Part shown: positions 3,595 through 37,816 of the stretch, in pieces
Layout of the letters: the number at the start of each line of letters is the position of its first letter
Numbering within the stretch: the stretch's first letter is position 1
Source of the DNA: a virus
IMG/VR virus record: IMGVR_UViG_3300045141_000102
Coordinates: 1-37,905 of that record
Length of the DNA stretch: 37,905 nucleotides
Strand: one strand, 5' to 3'
Notes under the pieces: generated by a model
What the model saw: the letters and a program-made list of their open reading frames with translations, nothing else
Databases searched by the model: none
What the model was told of the DNA's origin: nothing
Translations under genes and position numbers: made by a program

Positions 3595-3871
3595 TATGTT
3601 AATAACCTACGATAAAATTACCGATAAGCAAATAAATTATCTTCTCTGGCAGATAAAGAAGATACTCAACGGAGATATTGGAAGCGATGAAACACAGAAG
3701 ATAGCGTTAGATTTATTCCCCGAAGATATAGAGAACGGAGTAAATAAGGTCTGGTTACATGCTGAGGAGAAGTTAAGAGAATTAACAAAAGATGAGGCAA
3801 GCGGAGTAATACAATTATTCTACGATGAAAAAGTAGATGAGGGATTTAATCAACTTATAACTATTTTATGA
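3584..3871 (+). CDS. Hypothetical acidic protein
   Basis: I place the start at 3584 (MNTNMLITYDKITDKQINYLL) because GAGGA (3571-3575) lies 8 nt before it; a longer frame from 3506 would run inside the preceding gene and has no such site. The 95-aa product is helical and acidic, with no recognisable motif. Its TGA overlaps the next ATG (ATGA at 3868), which couples it to the repeat-protein gene downstream. Confidence 0.6.
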   Translation: MNTNMLITYDKITDKQINYLLWQIKKILNGDIGSDETQKIALDLFPEDIENGVNKVWLHAEEKLRELTKDEASGVIQLFYDEKVDEGFNQLITIL

Positions 3872-4647
3872 TTTCATACTTAGGAAAAACAAAACTAAAG
3901 ACGATGTTCGTGAAAGAGATTGAGAATCATCGTAAATTAGATATGATTATTCAAGGTACGTATGGTCAAGAGAATGGCACATGGAAAGGCTGTGCGGTAG
4001 GTTGTTCTATTCACTCATTAAATATCAAACTGAAAAAGAATTACTCAACATCAGACCATTCGGTGTATGAGAAAGAACTTGGTATCCCTGAATGGCTTGC
4101 GAGGTTAGAAGATATTATCTTTGAAGGATTGAGTGTTGAGGAATCAAAGAAATGGCCTGAACAATTTGCTAAGGCTATTCCTGTTGGTGTGAATCTTGAA
4201 CCAGTGAAATGGAAGTTCTGTGCGTTTATTCTCAAAGAGAATATCGAACTAGTTTTAACCTTAAAGATTAGTGACGAATTGAAGAAACAAGTAGTTGATT
4301 CTATTCGTGGGGTTTTGAGATTGAATGAGTCGGCTATCAAAACTGGTATTTGGGACGATTCAGCAGCAGAGTCAGCAGCAAGGTCAGCAGAGTCAGCAGC
4401 AAGGTCAGCAGCATGGTCAGCAGAGTCAGCAGCAGAGTCAGCAGAGTCAGCAGCAAGGTCAGCAGCATGGTCAGCAGAGTCAGCAGCAAGGTCAGCAAGG
4501 TCAGCAGCATGGTCAGCAGCATGGTCAGCAGAGTCAGCAGCAAGGTCAGCAGAGTCAGCAGCATGGTCAGCAGAGTCAGCAGCAAGGTCAGCAGCATATA
4601 CGAAATACGCCAAAGAATTATTAAGATTAATTAAATTACAAAAATAA
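3868..4647 (+). CDS. Protein with a globular N-domain and an Ala/Ser repeat tail
   Basis: Residues 1-164 form a globular domain with KGCAVGCSIHS, YEKELGIPEWLARLEDIIFEGL and FAKAIPVGVNLEPV. From memory this is a widespread uncharacterised family in phages and bacteria that often ends in Ala-rich repeats. Residues 165-243 are a repeat of SAAx and SAx units where x is E, R or W. The last residues (YTKYAKELLRLIKLQK) form a charged helix. An Ala-rich repeat of this kind would be helical, with R/E/W on a regular face. No function is known. The N-domain Cys and His residues could be functional but no catalytic signature was recognised. Confidence 0.75.
   Translation: MISYLGKTKLKTMFVKEIENHRKLDMIIQGTYGQENGTWKGCAVGCSIHSLNIKLKKNYSTSDHSVYEKELGIPEWLARLEDIIFEGLSVEESKKWPEQFAKAIPVGVNLEPVKWKFCAFILKENIELVLTLKISDELKKQVVDSIRGVLRLNESAIKTGIWDDSAAESAARSAESAARSAAWSAESAAESAESAARSAAWSAESAARSARSAAWSAAWSAESAARSAESAAWSAESAARSAAYTKYAKELLRLIKLQK
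4360..4596 (+). repeat. Repeat array 1: TCA GCA (GCA) + AGG/GAG/TGG
   Basis: The 237-bp array is built from TCA GCA GCA N or TCA GCA N, where N is AGG (R), GAG (E) or TGG (W). Twenty-two units are present in irregular order, and the last ends in TAT. The constant codons hardly vary while the third codon changes, so the variation is non-synonymous. Several other frames stay open only because the repeat contains no stop; these are shadows. Confidence 0.85.
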
Positions 4648-6928: not shown

Positions 6929-7249
6929 ATGAAAAAAGAAACGTCATTAGAACTCACTGCCGAGTTTACTGGCACTGGTTCACCATCTTCCCTCCCTTTC
7001 GAGGTTGGCGAGAAGTATTTTATCCGCACGGTTACTTACTTTGCTACAGGCAAGGTTAAGAAAATTGTGGGCAAGTTCCTTGTGTTAGAGGATGCCGCAT
7101 GGGTTGCTGATACTGGTCGTTTCAGTGGAGCAATCAACGAAGGAGTTTTGAATGAGGTTGAGCCAGTAGAAGTTGAGATGTATCTTAATGTCGATTCAAT
7201 AACAGATGCTTTCCAATGGAAGCATCCGCTTCCTCGTGAACAAAAATAG
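6929..7249 (+). CDS. Conserved phage protein of the 'DTGRF' type
   Basis: The 106-aa product contains GEKYFIRTVTYFATGKVKKI, VLEDAAWVADTGRFSGAI and LNEVEPVEVEMYLNVDSITDAFQW. From memory this matches an uncharacterised phage family usually encoded near DUF6948 proteins, as here (8009-8377, with the HNH gene between). It is beta-rich with no catalytic signature. AAAAGAG lies just upstream of ATG 6929, which follows the structured RNA by 22 nt, so that RNA is its leader. Function unknown. Confidence 0.7.
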   Translation: MKKETSLELTAEFTGTGSPSSLPFEVGEKYFIRTVTYFATGKVKKIVGKFLVLEDAAWVADTGRFSGAINEGVLNEVEPVEVEMYLNVDSITDAFQWKHPLPREQK

Positions 7250-7250
7250 T

Positions 7251-7765
7251 ATGCCAAGGGGTATTTACCAAGGTAATAAGGGGAAGAAACTATCAGAAGA
7301 ATCCAAAGTAAAAATTGGTAATGCTTCTCGTGGAAGAAAATACTCAAAGAAAATTAGAGAAAGATTTAGTAAATCTCAAATTGGGAACAAACACAATCTT
7401 GGCAAACACCATTCAGAAGAAACAAGAAATAAAATCAGACTTGCTCACTTAGGAAAAACATCTGATAAAAAATCATTATCAAAAATGGGCTTACACAATC
7501 CGAATTGGAAGGGCGGGATAACGCCAATAAATAAAAGGATTAGATGTTCAAGGGAGTTTAAGTTATGGCGTGAGGCAGTTTTTGAACGAGATAGGTATAC
7601 TTGTGTTTGGTGCGGTATAAAGGGAGGAGAATTACACCCAGACCATATTAAGCCATTCGCTTACTTCCCTGAACTGCGATTTGCTATAGATAACGGTCGA
7701 ACTCTGTGTGCTAACTGCCATAGAACTACAGATACATGGGGATTTAAGAGAGCAGAAGTAATCAT

Positions 7766-7769
<4 letters not shown>
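7251..7769 (+). CDS. NUMOD3-HNH homing endonuclease
   Basis: The product from ATG 7251 (MPRGIYQGNKGKKLSEESK) is 172 aa. NUMOD3-like repeats occupy about residues 10-85 (GKKLSEESKVKIGNASRG, GKHHSEETRNKIRLAHLG). The HNH core follows: WREAVFERDRYTCVWCGIKGG, LHPDHIKPF, NGRTLCANCHRTTDTWG, with CxxC, the DH pair and CxxCH all intact. It has inserted between two genes normally close together. It ends at TGA 7767-7769, which overlaps the ATG of the array-2 frame. If that TGA were read through, the same frame would continue as an uninterrupted Gly-Arg repeat to TAA 7986-7988. Confidence 0.8.
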
Positions 7770-23312: not shown

Positions 23313-24083
23313 TTATTCACGAATACTATTACGACGAGAAGAAATAGGTATCAGTCGTTGTCTTTGGTCTTTGTTTCGGTTAGCTATCTCCCAACCAAGA
23401 TTATGTATAAATTCTTGTTTCTTTGCTACTAAAAAGGGTAATTGCTTCATTCCCTTGATTGAAGCCCATGCCTCAGACATCTCCAAAGGTAATAAATAAT
23501 GTAAATTAGAGGGAAAACCAGGCTGTTTTGTAGTATCACTACTTACAAAATCCGACTTATCACGTTGGAAGAATAATTTTAGGCCATTTGTAGCCGTAAC
23601 TTGTGCGTCTAAAGGAGCCGGATAGAGAAAAATAGAATTAGCTAGTTGCTTATACCATTTTGGAAAACCAGGTTGATTAAAAGTGTTCTCTAACGGATTC
23701 TCAACCATAGATTCACTAATAGGATATACTGTCTGATAATATCCATTAGCATCTAAGATATTAACTTTTATAAGCCGTAAAAATGTTGCAGCATTTAATC
23801 CAGAAGCAGCCACGGGTAAAGAATAATCAGATTGCTCGCTACCTGGTGTAGTAACCAAGTTTTTTGTTGCTATAGGAAAATTGGTATAGTTAAAATCGTC
23901 CCATGTATAATCCCCCTCATTTTGCATTATAAGAGAGACTATATTGTCGTAAGAACGGTTACAGAGGTTGGTGAATTGTGACTTTAATACTGAATTTCCG
24001 GTGATTCCACCATCTCCGAGGTCTAAAAGTAGTTCGCAGGTCTCCAAGATTCCATCTTTCGTCGAGGTATTCGAGAATTGCAT
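23313..24083 (-). CDS. Head-tail adaptor-like protein
   Basis: The 256-aa product (GILETCELLLDLGDGGITGNSVLKSQFTNLCNRSYDNIVSLIMQNEGDYTWDD) resembles gp4-like adaptor or head-completion proteins of podoviruses: helical first part, then a beta-rich middle (LRLIKVNILDANGYYQTVYPISESMVENP, NSIFLYPAPLDAQVTATNGLKLFFQR) and a charged C-terminus (NKDQRQRLIPISSRRNS). It should sit under the portal to hold the tail. Identification rests on length, composition and location before tail genes, so it is moderate. Confidence 0.55.
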   Translation of the reverse strand: MQFSNTSTKDGILETCELLLDLGDGGITGNSVLKSQFTNLCNRSYDNIVSLIMQNEGDYTWDDFNYTNFPIATKNLVTTPGSEQSDYSLPVAASGLNAATFLRLIKVNILDANGYYQTVYPISESMVENPLENTFNQPGFPKWYKQLANSIFLYPAPLDAQVTATNGLKLFFQRDKSDFVSSDTTKQPGFPSNLHYLLPLEMSEAWASIKGMKQLPFLVAKKQEFIHNLGWEIANRNKDQRQRLIPISSRRNSIRE

Positions 24084-24086
24084 AAT

Positions 24087-25226
24087 TTATAAGTATTTAT
24101 TGAACATATCTCTCCATTTCCATGCGTGGTCTTTTATCTGCCAATTATCCCGTATAAAAGTATATGCATTATCAGCAAGCTCACGCCTCAAGTCTGGTTT
24201 CAATATAACACTTTCAAGGTGTTTAAACCAGTCATCTTTACTTTCACATAATAAACCAGTCTTTTCATGTTGTATCGTTGGTGTTCCCTGTATACGTCTA
24301 TAGTAGGGATAAACCTTTGAGGCTATAGTAGGAATACCCACCATTGAGTAATCGTACCATTTGATATGGCTCTTACCATGATTAAACGGCTCATTAACCA
24401 AAGGAGCGATACCAATATCCCAACCCATAGAAAATAGATGTTGAGGGAACCCGAACCAGCTTTGAGTACCTCCGTAGAACCATAATTGATTTAAAATATC
24501 TCCCTTAGCATAACTTTGTATCTTCTGCATAACCTTTTCTATGTTCTTAGGGTCAACAGCACCACAAATCTCAAATTTAACATTCGGGTATTTCTCTAAT
24601 ATCTGTGCTATAGGTTCATAAATAAGCTCTAAATCATCATCATGAGTTATAGAACCCATATATCCTATACGAATTTTATTATCTTTAAAGATTCTACGCT
24701 TAAACTTCCAATCGTTAACATCATTACAATTAGGCAATACGTCTATAGTAGGGTTTGCAAACTGCATTTTAGAATAAGTATCTTTTAAAGGCTGTGTAGA
24801 AACTGTAATTCCATTAGACAAGGTAATAAACGACCCTAAGAAGTATCGCCCCCCTTTAAGCTCAGCATAACTTTCAAAAGCAGGGTTATCTTTTCGTATT
24901 TCTAAATAATTATCATCAAGGTCAACGACAACTTTCTTTTTAAAATGGTCAGCCATAGCAAGTAAATTAGAACCTGCCGCACCATTATCTATATGCTTTG
25001 AGAATATAAGGTCATAGTTCTTTGCCATGTAGATATAGGCTTCTTCACCTGTTTTAAACTTCTCCATCCAAGTTTTACCCCAAAAATCAATATCAAACCA
25101 TTCTGTAAGGTTCTCCATAGGTTTAATAAGCCGATAATAAGGTATCGCTCCATAATGACCTGTCTTTTTACGATAGTCGTTAATCGCCCAACTGCTATCT
25201 AGCGCACATATCTTAGGTTTAATCAT
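24087..25226 (-). CDS. Glycosyltransferase (GT4-like)
   Basis: The 379-aa product has a GT-B-like layout: an N-domain (LIFSKHIDNGAAGSNLLAMADHFKKKVVVDLDDNY) and a C-domain beginning at IRIGYMGSITHDDDLELI, with EICGAVDPKNIE, WDIGIAPLVNEPFNHGKSHIKWYDYSMVGIPTIASKVYPYY. The last piece is the nucleotide-sugar site of family 4-type enzymes. It would add a sugar to a phage or host glycan. First gene next to the tail genes and last in the direction of transcription of the 6-kb glycan cluster. Confidence 0.75.
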   Translation of the reverse strand: MIKPKICALDSSWAINDYRKKTGHYGAIPYYRLIKPMENLTEWFDIDFWGKTWMEKFKTGEEAYIYMAKNYDLIFSKHIDNGAAGSNLLAMADHFKKKVVVDLDDNYLEIRKDNPAFESYAELKGGRYFLGSFITLSNGITVSTQPLKDTYSKMQFANPTIDVLPNCNDVNDWKFKRRIFKDNKIRIGYMGSITHDDDLELIYEPIAQILEKYPNVKFEICGAVDPKNIEKVMQKIQSYAKGDILNQLWFYGGTQSWFGFPQHLFSMGWDIGIAPLVNEPFNHGKSHIKWYDYSMVGIPTIASKVYPYYRRIQGTPTIQHEKTGLLCESKDDWFKHLESVILKPDLRRELADNAYTFIRDNWQIKDHAWKWRDMFNKYL

Positions 25227-25606
25227 ACTGTTCTAGCTGGATTACCTCTGACGATAACTCCTTTAGGAATATCTCTAACCACCACCGAGCCAGCACCTAT
25301 TAATGCACCATTACCAATCCTAACAGGCAAAATAATAGCTCCACAACCTATTGAGACATTATCTTCTACAACACCGCCATTAACTTTCCATTCAATACCT
25401 ACTTGTGGGTAAAGGTCATTAACAAATCTAACACCAGGCCCGATAAAAACATTATTACCTATCTTCCAACCAGGCGGTATTGATACATGACATTGTATAT
25501 TACAATTCTCACCAATTTTAGGTTCTCCTATGTCACAGAAGGCTGAAACTTTTGTACTTTCAGGTATATTACCTTCGCCCCATACATTAGCTAATGGATG
25601 TATCAT
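25223..25606 (-). CDS. Left-handed beta-helix acyltransferase
   Basis: The 127-aa product is built of hexapeptide repeats (IGENCNIQCHVSIPPGWKIGNNVFIGPGVRFVNDL, VSIGCGAIILPVRIGNGALIGAGSVVVRDIPKGVIVRGNPARTV). The ending IxGNPA is a hallmark of sugar O- or N-acetyltransferases (WbbJ/WecD types). It would acetylate a sugar made by the neighbouring enzymes. It is shorter than typical (about 180) but complete in its core. Coupled to the glycosyltransferase by ATGA and overlapping the epimerase by 20 nt. Confidence 0.8.
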   Translation of the reverse strand: MIHPLANVWGEGNIPESTKVSAFCDIGEPKIGENCNIQCHVSIPPGWKIGNNVFIGPGVRFVNDLYPQVGIEWKVNGGVVEDNVSIGCGAIILPVRIGNGALIGAGSVVVRDIPKGVIVRGNPARTV

Positions 25607-26456
25607 TTATTTCAGATAACATTTTAGTAATTCCTTGTTCAAAGTTATATTCTGATTTGAAGTTTAACATTCGTTCAGCCTTACTAGTGCCATACACAAA
25701 TCTAATCGGGTCAACAGTTCTTGTATTTCCTATCTCAACTGGCGTAGTAAAGCCCATCTTCTCACAAATAATCCTTGATACTTCAGAAGCCTTTAATTCT
25801 TCACCACTTCCTATGTTATAAGTTTGATAATATTTATCCCATGTAGCTTCTAAGGCTAATACATTTGCTCTGGCGATATCATCGATGTAGCAGAAGTCGT
25901 TAGATTGTGACCCACCATATAAAGTAGGTGTAATCCCTCGTTGTATTCGTTCAACAAACGCTCCTACTATTCCATGTCCTCGTTTCTCTTTTCCATAAAT
26001 GTGAGCATACCGAAGTATAATATAAGGATTTTGTTGTCGTTTAATATACAGTTCACCTAAAAGTTTAGTACACGCATAATGTGAGTTACCACTTACAGGA
26101 AAATCTTCAGTAATAGGAGGAGTCTTTTCAATAGGCATATATACTGACCCTGTAGAGGCATAAACAATAGGGATATGATACTTAGCAGCCACTTCAGCTA
26201 CATTCTTAGTACCTAATACATTAGTCTCAAAGGCAAGTTGAGGGTCTCTATCTGAATCAGCAAAGCGAGCAATGGCTGCAAGATGCAAAATCCTATCTGG
26301 ACTAATCTCTTTAATACATTCTTCAAAGAATTTTTTATCTCGAATATCATTATGTTCCATTATATCGAAACCAATAACTTCATGACCTTTCTCCTCAAGT
26401 AATTTTTTTGTAGCACTTCCTATAAAGCCGAGATGGCCTGTGAGAATTATTTTCAT
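25587..26456 (-). CDS. NAD-dependent sugar epimerase/dehydratase
   Basis: The 289-aa product is an extended short-chain dehydrogenase: GHLGFIGSATKKLLE (Gly-rich NAD site, residues 7-21), DIRDKKF, LHLAAIARFADSD, YASTGSVY, and the catalytic YACTKLLGE (YxxxK). These are UDP-glucose 4-epimerase/dTDP-glucose dehydratase features. It supplies an activated sugar for the local glycosyltransferases. Ends in TAA; overlaps its neighbours by ATGA at 26453. Confidence 0.85.
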   Translation of the reverse strand: MKIILTGHLGFIGSATKKLLEEKGHEVIGFDIMEHNDIRDKKFFEECIKEISPDRILHLAAIARFADSDRDPQLAFETNVLGTKNVAEVAAKYHIPIVYASTGSVYMPIEKTPPITEDFPVSGNSHYACTKLLGELYIKRQQNPYIILRYAHIYGKEKRGHGIVGAFVERIQRGITPTLYGGSQSNDFCYIDDIARANVLALEATWDKYYQTYNIGSGEELKASEVSRIICEKMGFTTPVEIGNTRTVDPIRFVYGTSKAERMLNFKSEYNFEQGITKMLSEINDTSIS

Positions 26457-27214
26457 AAACTTTCAAATAATTTTATTATATGATGAGTGTCAATAAAATC
26501 ATCCCAAAAGTAACTAGCCTCTGGTATTGGAGGAGTATTAATCTTAGATAAAATATCAACCAAGTGAGGCTCAATCTTAACACAATAAGGTAAATCCTGT
26601 GTGTTTAATACAGTACGCCCTGCCGTTAAAAACTCCATCGCAGTATGTGATAATCCATCATGAATGGGCGCTCTAATTAACACCTTACTTTGTATTATAA
26701 TATCCTTCACATCAACAAACTTTAATTCTTCAGCAGGTTTATCAAGCCATAAAAAAGGTTTTCCGTATTCCTTTTCAACTTCTTTCATAAGGTCATATCT
26801 AAAAAACTCATGTCGTGCTGGTGGCATATACACACAAACCCTGTCACCTAATGGAGGTACATACCCAAAATAATGTTTAGGTGTCCACGTAACCATTTTA
26901 GCTTTAATTCCTATACTCGCAAGCTCTGGTATCAAATTAAACCCGTCTGCTAAATGAATAGCCTCTTTATATGTTTTCATCTCACCGTTATATCCATTCT
27001 CAATAGCATTCTTAACATCAGTACCACCCCAATGTATTATCTTAGTTGTTGCTCCTTCAAAGTAATTTCGTATCTCCTCAATCTTATCACCACCACCACA
27101 AATATATCTTACTGGTTTATTCGATTTTTCGGTAACTCGAATACCAGTCTGTTTAGCTATTTCATCAATAAACAACCAACCCCACCCCCAACCGTCAATC
27201 ATATCGCTTGTCAT
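26453..27214 (-). CDS. Probable glycosyltransferase (GT-B-like)
   Basis: The 253-aa product starts MTSDMIDGWGWGWLFIDEIAKQTG. I choose ATG 27214 because GGAGAGG lies about 7-13 nt upstream; a frame to 27280 would overlap the next gene further. It has an apparent Rossmann segment (RYICGGGDKIEEIRNYF), and a C-part with IIQSKVLIRAPIHDGLSHTAMEFLTAGRTVLNTQDLPYC, which resembles the donor-binding end of GT-B enzymes. It lies between the epimerase and a GT2. The exact family and sugar cannot be told. Confidence 0.55.
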   Translation of the reverse strand: MTSDMIDGWGWGWLFIDEIAKQTGIRVTEKSNKPVRYICGGGDKIEEIRNYFEGATTKIIHWGGTDVKNAIENGYNGEMKTYKEAIHLADGFNLIPELASIGIKAKMVTWTPKHYFGYVPPLGDRVCVYMPPARHEFFRYDLMKEVEKEYGKPFLWLDKPAEELKFVDVKDIIIQSKVLIRAPIHDGLSHTAMEFLTAGRTVLNTQDLPYCVKIEPHLVDILSKINTPPIPEASYFWDDFIDTHHIIKLFESL

Positions 27215-27887
27215 AATCAATTCCTCTCCTTCGTAATACTTCTCTACAATTAATAATCTGCCGTTCTGTTTTAAACTCACGGGTTAAATCACCAGTCCTA
27301 AATGTCCATAAACAATCTTCTAATAGCTTGAAAGTAAGACCTCTCTCCCAAGCAGTAAGCATAAGTTCCCAATCAACAGCACTCTCGAGAGATTCATCAT
27401 AATAAGGCATCTTAGATTTACGCCATAGAGAACCACCGTGAGGAATACATTGATTCTTTAACAGCTCTTTATATTCAGTTACTTCCTGTACTTTACTGAC
27501 CCCAACAGTATTTTTATATTTATGGTCAAACTCCTCATAATTAGTATACACTACATCAGCATTAGTCTCTTGTTGATAATCAGATACCTTTTGTAACGCA
27601 TACTCATCAATCGCAAGGTCATCGCTTCCAAAGGGTATTATAAAATCACCAGTAGAGTTTTCTAACGCTAAATTAAATGCCGCACTTATTCCTTTATGTC
27701 GTTGTCGGATATAACGGGCGTGAGGAAACTTAGAAACAACCTCACGTAATGATTTAAAACTTCCATCATCAACTACCACAACCTCAAAATCCTCATAAAT
27801 CTGATTTTCAAAAGACTGTAATGTTTCTTGTAATAAATCCTCCCTGTTATAAACAGGTATATTAACTGATATTCTTAGGGACACCAT
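27195..27887 (-). CDS. Glycosyltransferase family 2
   Basis: The 230-aa product shows GT2 (GT-A) motifs: ISVNIPVYNREDLLQETLQSF, EVVVVDDGSFKSLREVV (metal-binding DxD region nearby), FIIPFGSDDLAIDEYALQKVSDY and HGGSLWRKSKMPYYDESLESAVDWELMLTAWERG. This family transfers a sugar from a nucleotide donor to a growing glycan. It overlaps the methyltransferase start region by 26 nt, suggesting co-translation. Confidence 0.85.
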   Translation of the reverse strand: MVSLRISVNIPVYNREDLLQETLQSFENQIYEDFEVVVVDDGSFKSLREVVSKFPHARYIRQRHKGISAAFNLALENSTGDFIIPFGSDDLAIDEYALQKVSDYQQETNADVVYTNYEEFDHKYKNTVGVSKVQEVTEYKELLKNQCIPHGGSLWRKSKMPYYDESLESAVDWELMLTAWERGLTFKLLEDCLWTFRTGDLTREFKTERQIINCREVLRRRGIDYDKRYD

Positions 27888-28383
27888 ACACGGTTAAATA
27901 AATTTGACCATTATCATTCTGTCTAAGCTCATCTATGATATGCCAATTAGAAAGTAACTCTTTAAACTTTTCCTCATTTAAATTAGTAATCCTATAAATA
28001 TATCCATCATTAGGGTTTGGGTCTATGGGGGCTGAAATAACAATTACTTTATCCTTTATTCTATCCAAAAACCTTTCAGGTTCTTTTAAATGACATAATG
28101 CCTCTAAACACACAACTCCCTCAAATCCGAAGTAATCAAATTCTTGTATATCAGACCTTATAGCAAGCACTTTATACTCACTAATGGCATATTCAACCGC
28201 TTCACCCGATATATCAATACCTAATACCCTATTTTTAAGGTCTGTAAGTAATTTAACACCATATCCCATACCACAACCAGCATCAGCAATGTTCATATCC
28301 TTAAACTTCTTACATGCAAAGTTATAACGTTCTATAGGATAAAACATTCGGTTCTTTAGGGCGTCATTTCGTTCCTCAATCAT
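27862..28383 (-). CDS. SAM-dependent methyltransferase
   Basis: The 173-aa product has the class I motif MNIADAGCGMGYGVKLLTDL (motif I, residues 30-49), RVLGIDISGEAVEYA (acidic end of motif II) and GFEGVVCLEALCHLKEPERFLDRIKD (motif IV-V region). In the glycan cluster it probably methylates a sugar or a lipid-linked glycan. It is coupled by ATGA to the aminotransferase-like gene upstream. Confidence 0.8.
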   Translation of the reverse strand: MIEERNDALKNRMFYPIERYNFACKKFKDMNIADAGCGMGYGVKLLTDLKNRVLGIDISGEAVEYAISEYKVLAIRSDIQEFDYFGFEGVVCLEALCHLKEPERFLDRIKDKVIVISAPIDPNPNDGYIYRITNLNEEKFKELLSNWHIIDELRQNDNGQIYLTVYGVPKNIS

Positions 28384-28976
28384 AGTATTAAACTTAAATC
28401 TCTATACTCAGCCTCTTGCGGAGGATTATTTTTAGGTAATACTGATAAAAGCCATAGACCCCTAGCCGCAGAGATAGGGTCAAGGTACATATGGAATGCA
28501 GGAGTTTGTATTGGTTCAGTCATTACATCAGCTCCTTCAGTTCTACCATCAAATCTAGCCCTTCTAAACCAATCGGCAGCCTCTTTATTATCAGTTAATA
28601 TGGCCCCACCCTTACCCATAGAAATATGTTTTGATATTTGAAAACTAAGACAAGTAAAAGTACCTTTTTGATACATACCGCTAGTCAACCAACGAGCTGA
28701 ATCTATTATTCTAGTAGGATTAATCATATAACTTCCCTTCCAATCATCATCTATCCATTCAATTCTCATCCCTGCGTTTAGAGCAGCTTGTGCGACACCT
28801 ATATAAGTTCTTTTTGGTAAATTAATTATATTTTTCCAATGAATGGGGAATAATTTCTCGTATATAAAACATAAAAAGAGAGCATTAGAACAAGAATCGA
28901 CACTTACTACGTAAGGAGCGCCAGTATAATTGGATAGTTCTTCTTCAAATCCTCGAACAATATCAAATGGTTTCAT
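28380..28976 (-). CDS. Short DegT/DnrJ-type aminotransferase
   Basis: The 198-aa product resembles the DegT/DnrJ/EryC1/StrS sugar aminotransferases: YVVSVDSCSNALFLCF (PLP-binding start), LPKRTYIGVAQAALNAG, then SFQISKHISMGKGGAILTDN, where K in SFQISKH is the likely PLP lysine. Typical members are about 370 residues; this one lacks the C-terminal domain yet ends in a normal overlap (ATGA) with the next gene. It may be a reduced enzyme or need a partner; the small 115-aa gene just upstream is a candidate. Confidence 0.65.
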   Translation of the reverse strand: MKPFDIVRGFEEELSNYTGAPYVVSVDSCSNALFLCFIYEKLFPIHWKNIINLPKRTYIGVAQAALNAGMRIEWIDDDWKGSYMINPTRIIDSARWLTSGMYQKGTFTCLSFQISKHISMGKGGAILTDNKEAADWFRRARFDGRTEGADVMTEPIQTPAFHMYLDPISAARGLWLLSVLPKNNPPQEAEYRDLSLIL

Positions 28977-29310
28977 AAACTTTTTCTATTATTTTTGAAT
29001 CAATTCCCTTAAACATTTCTTTCTTCATAAAATCAATAACAAATCGTGGCATATCTTCTAATATAACTGCATAAGGCATAGAGCCATCCAAAACACCATC
29101 TTCATACATTTGCATATGAATACCCCGCCATCGTTTACCCTCAATCAAAGCTTCAAAACCTATAGATTTTCCTTCTGGAGATAGCCCACGTTCAGAATAA
29201 TTAAAAAAATGTTCAATATCTTCCTCAGTAATAACTAACTCTTTATATGTTTTAGGTATAAAAAACTTTACAGTCTCTAAATCTTTAAATTGTTTTTCAG
29301 ATAGATTCAT
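28963..29310 (-). CDS. Hypothetical protein within the glycan cluster
   Basis: The 115-aa product (MNLSEKQFKDLETVKFFIPKTYKELVITEEDIEHFFNYSERGLSPEGKSIGFEALIEGKRWRGIHMQMYEDGVL) contains no motif I recognise. It is alpha/beta with aromatic residues in the middle. Overlap with both neighbours (14 nt and ATGA) indicates that it is a real, co-translated member of the cluster. It could be an accessory of the short aminotransferase. Confidence 0.55.
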   Translation of the reverse strand: MNLSEKQFKDLETVKFFIPKTYKELVITEEDIEHFFNYSERGLSPEGKSIGFEALIEGKRWRGIHMQMYEDGVLDGSMPYAVILEDMPRFVIDFMKKEMFKGIDSKIIEKVYETI

Positions 29311-30200
29311 AAAAGTTTATATACCGATTCTAAAATCATGGCAACTTTCTCCCACGTCATACCTTCTAACTGTTTTTTAAATGTATCATCTGGTTTACTT
29401 GCTAATGCCTGTAATAAAGACCTCTCAATACTATCCTCATCGTTATAATTCATTCTAAAAAAAGGTATATCCCATTCACAACCATTCGTCATGATAATAG
29501 GTTTACCTTGTGACCCTGCTTCCATTACAGTAAGCGGCATAATTTCTTTATATGAAGGACAAGCATATACCTTACAACCAGCATAATACTTTTTTAATTC
29601 CTCTTTTCCTATTACGGGAATTACTATTGCCCCTTCTTTTTTAACCAGTTCAGCATACTCCCCCCCAGCACCTATACAAACATATTTTAGACCTAATTTT
29701 TTACACACCTTTGCCACCGCCAGTTGCCCTTTGTTTGCATCTATACGCCCAACCGTAAGGATATCAGAAGGATAAGTAACAGATACCGGCTCAAACCACC
29801 AAGAATTAATTCCATTAGGGATAATGACAATCTTATTATCAGGTATCGTTAAATGCCGTCTCACACGTTCTAACTCTCCTTCAGTTAAAAAAATACACTT
29901 ATGAAGCTCATTAATCATAGCCTGTTGTATCTCATAACTCACATATTGGTCTGTTTCATGATAAATCATAGAACACACTACCTTTTTACCCTGTTGTCGT
30001 GCATTCCATACATGGTATTTAGTCCAAGACATTGAGAAGTTAAAGCAATGAACTATATCAGCCTTAATATCAATTACTGGGTCAAAATAAAACTCAGTTT
30101 TAATACCAAGTTCCTCTAATGCCTTACGAGTAGAATCTAATTGAATAGAATCACCACCAACCCAACTAGAGCTATCCCTATTCTGAAATAATATTGTCAT
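29307..30200 (-). CDS. Glycosyltransferase family 4
   Basis: The 297-aa product follows the GT4 pattern: LFQNRDSSSWVGGDSIQL at the start, DIVHCFNFSMSW, IIPNGINSWWFEPVS, ILTVGRIDANKGQLAVAKVCKKLG, and YKEIMPLTVMEAGSQGKPIIMTNGCEW (the conserved E-x7-E region). It transfers a sugar from a nucleotide donor. It is the first glycan gene in the direction of transcription, coupled by ATGA to the small gene upstream. Confidence 0.85.
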   Translation of the reverse strand: MTILFQNRDSSSWVGGDSIQLDSTRKALEELGIKTEFYFDPVIDIKADIVHCFNFSMSWTKYHVWNARQQGKKVVCSMIYHETDQYVSYEIQQAMINELHKCIFLTEGELERVRRHLTIPDNKIVIIPNGINSWWFEPVSVTYPSDILTVGRIDANKGQLAVAKVCKKLGLKYVCIGAGGEYAELVKKEGAIVIPVIGKEELKKYYAGCKVYACPSYKEIMPLTVMEAGSQGKPIIMTNGCEWDIPFFRMNYNDEDSIERSLLQALASKPDDTFKKQLEGMTWEKVAMILESVYKLL

Positions 30201-36153: not shown

Positions 36154-37461
36154 TTATTCTCTATTCCCTTTATTCGCCCTCGCCTCATAAACCCTATTAT
36201 TCTGCTGCGTCATATAGTTATTTTGAAATTGATTATAAACCAAAGCAGCATAGCGATGCTCATCAGCAAAATGTGATGTCCAGTCATGTAGAGGAACATT
36301 CTTAAATATTTTATTTTCCTCATCGTATACCCTCGTATACTGGGGTATTGCTTCAAGCCATTCAGCACAGTGTGTTTTATCGACATATAATCGTTTGAAA
36401 AGTCTTCGACCTGCCTCAATTCCATCCTGTATAGAGATATTAGGTACTATAGTAAACTCAATTCCTAAGTCCTTAGCAACCTCTAACCGTGATTGATTAC
36501 CGGTAAGGCTATAATCGCTTACTTGTATATCGTGTGGTGCGAAGTGTCTACCATAGGTATACCGCTTTTTCTTGATTTCCGCAATCCAATCAGGTAATCC
36601 TTTCTTATTCCCCGATAAATAATCTATCTTCCTGACCGTTATGCCATTACTTTGATAGAAACCTATGCAATTAGTGTCATCTTTACCCAAATCCCATACT
36701 GTATGTACCAACATTCGTGGGTCATAGGGAACATCAACAAAATGCTGTTCCTTTTCAGCCCAATCAACTTCTTGCCAGTAGATAGACCCTTGAATAGCTG
36801 ATATAAAAGAACAATAAAACTCCTGCTGAATCATGTCTTCGGACATACCGGACTTACGTTCTTCATCTATATCGCCCAAAGTCAATACTTTTGTATCATC
36901 AATAGTCAGCTTCTCAACAAACCAAGCAGGATTCTGTTTTGCCATTTCATATAGCTTATATCCATGATTTTTACCTCTAGGTGTATAGTTAAAAATAGCC
37001 CACCCCTTGTTTTCAGCCAATACAGGACGCATATATTCCCAACCTTTAGGGTTCTGTAAGCTATACTCACTAAATACAATTCACTTAGGGTTTGTACCTA
37101 CTAATTTATCAACATCATCTAAACCAACTACTTGGAATAAACTACCATTCTTAAACTTAATCTTCATCTCAGTGTCATTCGGCTTTCCTTGTAATAAAAC
37201 TTTAGGAAAGTAATCAAGATACTTTACACCGTCTTTTCCTCTACCTTCCCAAAGTGCTTTCTTAGCTTGGGCATATGTTGGGAATGCATAGTAATAATTC
37301 CCTACATTTAAAGCCATTTCAGCAATAACTAAATTAAGACAGACAATATCTTTGCCTGCCCTACGATGATACAGCATTATTAACCGCCTCACGCCTCTAT
37401 CAAACGCCTTCAGGAGATTTATCTGATAGGGACGGGGTTTGAACATCCCCTCTATCGTCAT
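36154..37461 (-). CDS. terL: Terminase large subunit with an in-frame TGA
   Basis: Two adjacent frames (37461-37081 and 37032-36154) are one reading frame split by TGA 37083-37081. Joined they give 435 residues: Walker A HRRAGKD (residues 32-38), GTNPK then TGA at position 127, then IVFSEYSLQ (Walker B), AIFNYTPRGKNHG (coupling motif), VHTVWDLGKDDTNC (first nuclease Asp, about residue 257), APHDIQV and HDWTSHFADEHRYAAL (later nuclease acids). From memory the family has Gly at position 127 ('GTNP.GivFSEY.L'), so the TGA replaces a glycine codon (GGA by one base). Without read-through the N-part lacks Walker B and the C-part lacks Walker A. It overlaps terS by 62 nt; ATG 37446 is another start. 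Confidence 0.8.
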
Positions 37462-37816
37462 AGTTCACAATCTTTAATGCAATAGCAGAACCTTCTTCAC
37501 CGCCTTCTAAACCAATCTTTTGCCGTGGCATACCATCAATATAACTCCAAAGAGTTCTCCGAATATCATGTCCATCAAGTGAATCTTGTATTATATTATC
37601 AGCTAATACTTCAATAGCCTCACGTTTACCATCAGGCTCTAACTCTTTAAGTTTACGTTTAATTACTGTAGTAAGACTAATAGAACCTAATTGCTTACCT
37701 CCTACTTTCGGGTGTCCTTTAACAAACTTACCATTCTCATCATGTAACACAATTTTATCACTATTCTGTGACAAATCAGGTTGTATATCTTCTTCAATTA
37801 AAATAGGTTCTTCCAT
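37400..37816 (-). CDS. terS: Terminase small subunit (DUF5681-like)
   Basis: The 138-aa product (HDENGKFVKGHPKVGGKQLGSISLTTVIKRKLKELEPDGKREAIEVLADNI) has the basic 'FVkGHpKvGGkq.Gs.SLtT.ik..L' start that, from memory, belongs to the DUF5681-like group associated with terminases. It lies directly before terL with a 62-nt overlap and should recognise DNA for packaging. It ends in TGA. A ribosome site (AAAGAAAT) lies upstream of ATG 37816. Confidence 0.65.
   Translation of the reverse strand: MEEPILIEEDIQPDLSQNSDKIVLHDENGKFVKGHPKVGGKQLGSISLTTVIKRKLKELEPDGKREAIEVLADNIIQDSLDGHDIRRTLWSYIDGMPRQKIGLEGGEEGSAIALKIVNYDDRGDVQTPSLSDKSPEGV

Follow-up and report, generated by a model that had tools for sequence, protein, structure and literature searches.

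Why should the gene for the large terminase subunit (TerL) of a virus contain an in-frame TGA? The question is raised by IMG/VR record IMGVR_UViG_3300045141_000102, whose 37,905 nucleotides are referred to here as the window. We conclude that this TGA is very probably an isolated nonsense codon of the assembly with no programmed role (probability about 0.92), being either an error in the contig or a genuine inactivating mutation of the terminase. The features that bear on this conclusion are as follows.

36154–37461, minus strand: TerL frame of 435 codons with one interruption, recognized by translation, by its match to phrog_2 and by tblastn relatives.
37081–37083, minus strand: in-frame TGA, codon 127, placed by translation and alignments; close relatives encode Gly here.
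37084–37461, minus strand: upstream part of TerL, residues 1–126, with a Walker A-like motif, HRRAGKD (assigned by eye).
36154–37032, minus strand: downstream open reading frame (ORF) of 292 amino acids, read from the next in-frame ATG and starting past the Walker B stretch.
37400–37816, minus strand: ORF that overlaps TerL and lies directly upstream of it, a putative small terminase by its position; a family search with this ORF gave no match.

Translation of the minus strand from 37461 to 36154 reveals the TGA as the sole internal stop, positioned between GTNPK and IVFSEYSL. It directly precedes the predicted Walker B strand (IVFSEYS, assigned by eye), and as the sequence stands it parts Walker A from Walker B, so that the two motifs are not carried by one polypeptide. 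When the stop is read through, residues 5–410 match the PHROG family phrog_2, terminase large subunit, with an E-value of 4.7e-28. By tblastn, 557 phage records match TerL, many of them annotated as such; the match to the family extends over most of the length of the protein. A comparison of TerL by sequence with solved structures gave no match. Both the translation and the alignments agree with the claim of an earlier note on this DNA that the two terminase halves form one frame broken by the TGA only.

The residue expected at codon 127 was sought in a first set of relatives, comprising 79 viral contigs with TerL homologues of 33–74% identity (viral-contig scan, tblastn). Gly occupies the position in 78 of 78 true alignments; a single Thr at this column is an artifact, contributed by a second alignment that falls within an insertion of locus L075, and is left out of the 78. 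All four Gly codons are used at the site (43 GGC, 13 GGT, 11 GGA and 11 GGG), and none of the 79 relatives has an in-frame stop within the aligned TerL. In a wider set, Asp is found at the column in a clade at about 36–42% identity (13 alignments, 'INPIDVVFDEYS'), and three very distant alignments carry another residue. In these alignments, Gly is characteristic of the close family but not of all terminases, and a stop is seen in this window only. The statement in the earlier note that the family has Gly thus holds for the close family but not for the more distant clade.

That note had also proposed that the base at this codon be looked up in close phages. Gly is present in relatives up to ∼74% amino acid identity, which is the closest TerL relative found, in searched sets that may omit near-identical records. 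No near-identical phage was recovered by a pattern scan for the exact flanks with the codon left open, by searches of genome contigs, by a nucleotide-level search of a phage DNA collection, or with the 851-amino-acid late protein as a query. The upstream ORF used in the same manner returned three weak relatives only.

Identity to the closest relatives is 60–67% upstream of the stop and 68–77% downstream. Both halves of TerL are thus conserved as a functional protein, with no relaxation of the downstream half. Since this half does not show decay, the stop is either very recent, or present in a minority variant, or an error. Synonymous sites are saturated, which makes dN/dS uninformative and precludes finer dating.

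The simplest explanation consistent with these observations, the isolated nonsense codon, can be divided into two versions. A single-base contig error, made in sequencing or assembly, is in our judgement slightly better than an even bet. When single substitutions fall at random in the late genes, about 4.5% of them create a stop, and one nonsense codon is therefore compatible with a modest number of such errors across 38 kb of contig. Coverage near contig ends is often low, and the TGA lies 822 bases from the end of this contig, a point in favor of an isolated nonsense codon. Against it, contigs usually carry the majority base, and the case for an error is itself indirect. We judge the second version, a real defective variant in one genome or in a minority of the population, to be a serious possibility of clearly less than even odds. 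In such a variant, the upstream fragment without Walker B would be an inactive ATPase, and hence a phage with the TGA version could not be expected to package DNA by itself.

Next in order is the proposal that the UGA is read through, by leakiness or by program (for example by near-cognate tRNA-Trp), to yield a low amount of full-length terminase. Among stop codons UGA is generally the leakiest, the next base here is A, and both TerL halves are conserved. However, the stop is found at this site in none of the 79 relatives, so that stop and context have not been kept as programmed read-through would lead one to expect. A stimulatory RNA structure is not evident downstream, as folding of the 83 bases that begin with the TGA does not surpass that of shuffled sequences (z = −1.2, with 25 of 200 shuffles as good), although some read-through sites need no structure. 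Moreover, read-through would usually place an amino acid different from the conserved Gly beside Walker B. We consider this proposal improbable. Still less credible is the particular form of it in which the single UGA before Walker B caps the terminase at a low read-through level and ties packaging to the leakiness of UGA in the host or to a suppressor tRNA. If read-through did operate, it would represent an unusual translational control of packaging.

A wider recoding has even less to recommend it. UGA might be read as an amino acid by host or phage (Gly, code 25; Trp, code 4), or the code might switch in the late genes. Stop reassignment in late genes, including TGA to Trp, is known in crAss-like phages (PMC7886860), and the terminase is a late gene. 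Recoded phages, however, carry the reassigned stop in many genes, whereas the window has a single case, and none is seen in the other conserved late genes. We compared the ORFs of all related loci with the window, and the TerL TGA is the only coding-strand stop that is broadly supported as an interruption (104 tblastn alignments run straight across it); the remaining stops in these alignments mark gene ends, are shadows on the antisense strand or come from isolated weak matches. This test covers conserved genes, and much of the tail region (11.5–21.9 kb) is unmatched among related loci; the long ORFs of that region (917, 658 and 851 amino acids) are themselves open.

Nor is TGA avoided as a terminator. 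It terminates 24 of the 54 called genes (with the TerL TGA counted), compared with 22 for TAA and eight for TAG, and is used regularly in the late block as well. Four-base stop/start overlaps number 14, of which 13 are ATGA and one is GTGA. These terminator and overlap totals are approximate, since the 54-gene list is our own selection from the ORF table. They bear out the earlier description of TGA as an ordinary stop, with slightly fewer overlaps than the “about fifteen” ATGA cases reported. There are also no tRNA genes within the window, and hence no suppressor tRNA there. Taken together, these findings leave recoding with practically no probability. Of the three readings put forward earlier, a one-base nonsense mutation and an assembly or sequencing error are both supported. 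The third, which combined read-through, a suppressor tRNA and a host with UGA as Gly, is disfavored by the normal use of TGA, the single case, the relatives without a stop, the window without a tRNA gene and the lack of RNA structure. Selenocysteine at the TGA was likewise rejected, because the relatives have Gly and not Cys.

That the terminase is active as two separately translated polypeptides is almost certainly wrong: the TGA is indeed flanked by two ORFs, but Walker B falls between the end of the upstream one and the first ATG (37032) of the downstream one, so that neither carries this motif, and the relatives lack a stop here. Inspection of the sequence between the TGA and the ATG at 37032 showed no ATG, GTG or TTG in frame, and the downstream ORF (36154–37032) is not plausible as an independent gene.

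An intein or intron at the TGA site was also considered and rejected, since relatives align straight across the site with no inserted sequence. Probable inteins are present in the TerL of two relatives. In L071 (2431–4881), an insert of ∼360 amino acids lies within the Walker A region (HRR^CLGGD...VVHN^SGKD), with a LAGLIDADG_3 match above the cut-off and weak matches to intein-splicing families. The insert in L075 (3603–5972) also matches LAGLIDADG_3 but sits at a different site, between GSDNYA and SLRGTNPRG, a short distance ahead of the TGA column of the window.

Elsewhere in the window, ORFs at 579–1181 and 7206–7769 both carry NUMOD3 motifs, and one of the two also has an HNH domain; they are probable homing endonucleases. 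An ORF at 3868–4647, on the plus strand of the early side, weakly matches tail-fiber families and is set apart from the late gene block. Between the head and tail genes (23313–30200) is a block of sugar-modifying proteins, with glycosyltransferases, a nucleotide-sugar epimerase, a hexapeptide-repeat protein, a methyltransferase and an aminotransferase-like ORF.

An isolated nonsense codon of this kind has little significance beyond annotation. It does show that a lone in-frame stop in an uncultured contig, even at a critical codon, should be compared with relatives and with reads before recoding is proposed.

Among known systems, the recoded crAss-like phages with TGA as Trp (PMC7886860) likewise have an in-frame TGA in a late gene. 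In those phages, however, reassignment extends over the late-gene portions of the genome, whereas here one codon is affected and TGA is a normal terminator. Literature searches on TerL with a read-through stop recovered examples of whole-genome or late-gene recoding and none that involved a single codon. The closest terminases, 69–74% identical in amino acid sequence along the gene, are those of L004/L082 (IMGVR_UViG_3300032323_003045), L083 (IMGVR_UViG_3300005683_000606), L002/L081 (IMGVR_UViG_3300037141_000045) and L003. Unlike that of the window, all are uninterrupted; the TGA column is Gly in L002, L003 and L004, and L081–L083 share a 663-amino-acid ORF and the major head protein with the window. 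More distant are two proteins annotated as terminase large subunit, from Podoviridae sp. ct3Et533 (MW202510; 43.7% identity) and Pelagibacter phage HTVC010P (KC465898; 34.9% identity). Both are uninterrupted, and they read GTNPIGVVFSEYS and YLDGCVIDEYA, respectively, at the site where the window has its stop.
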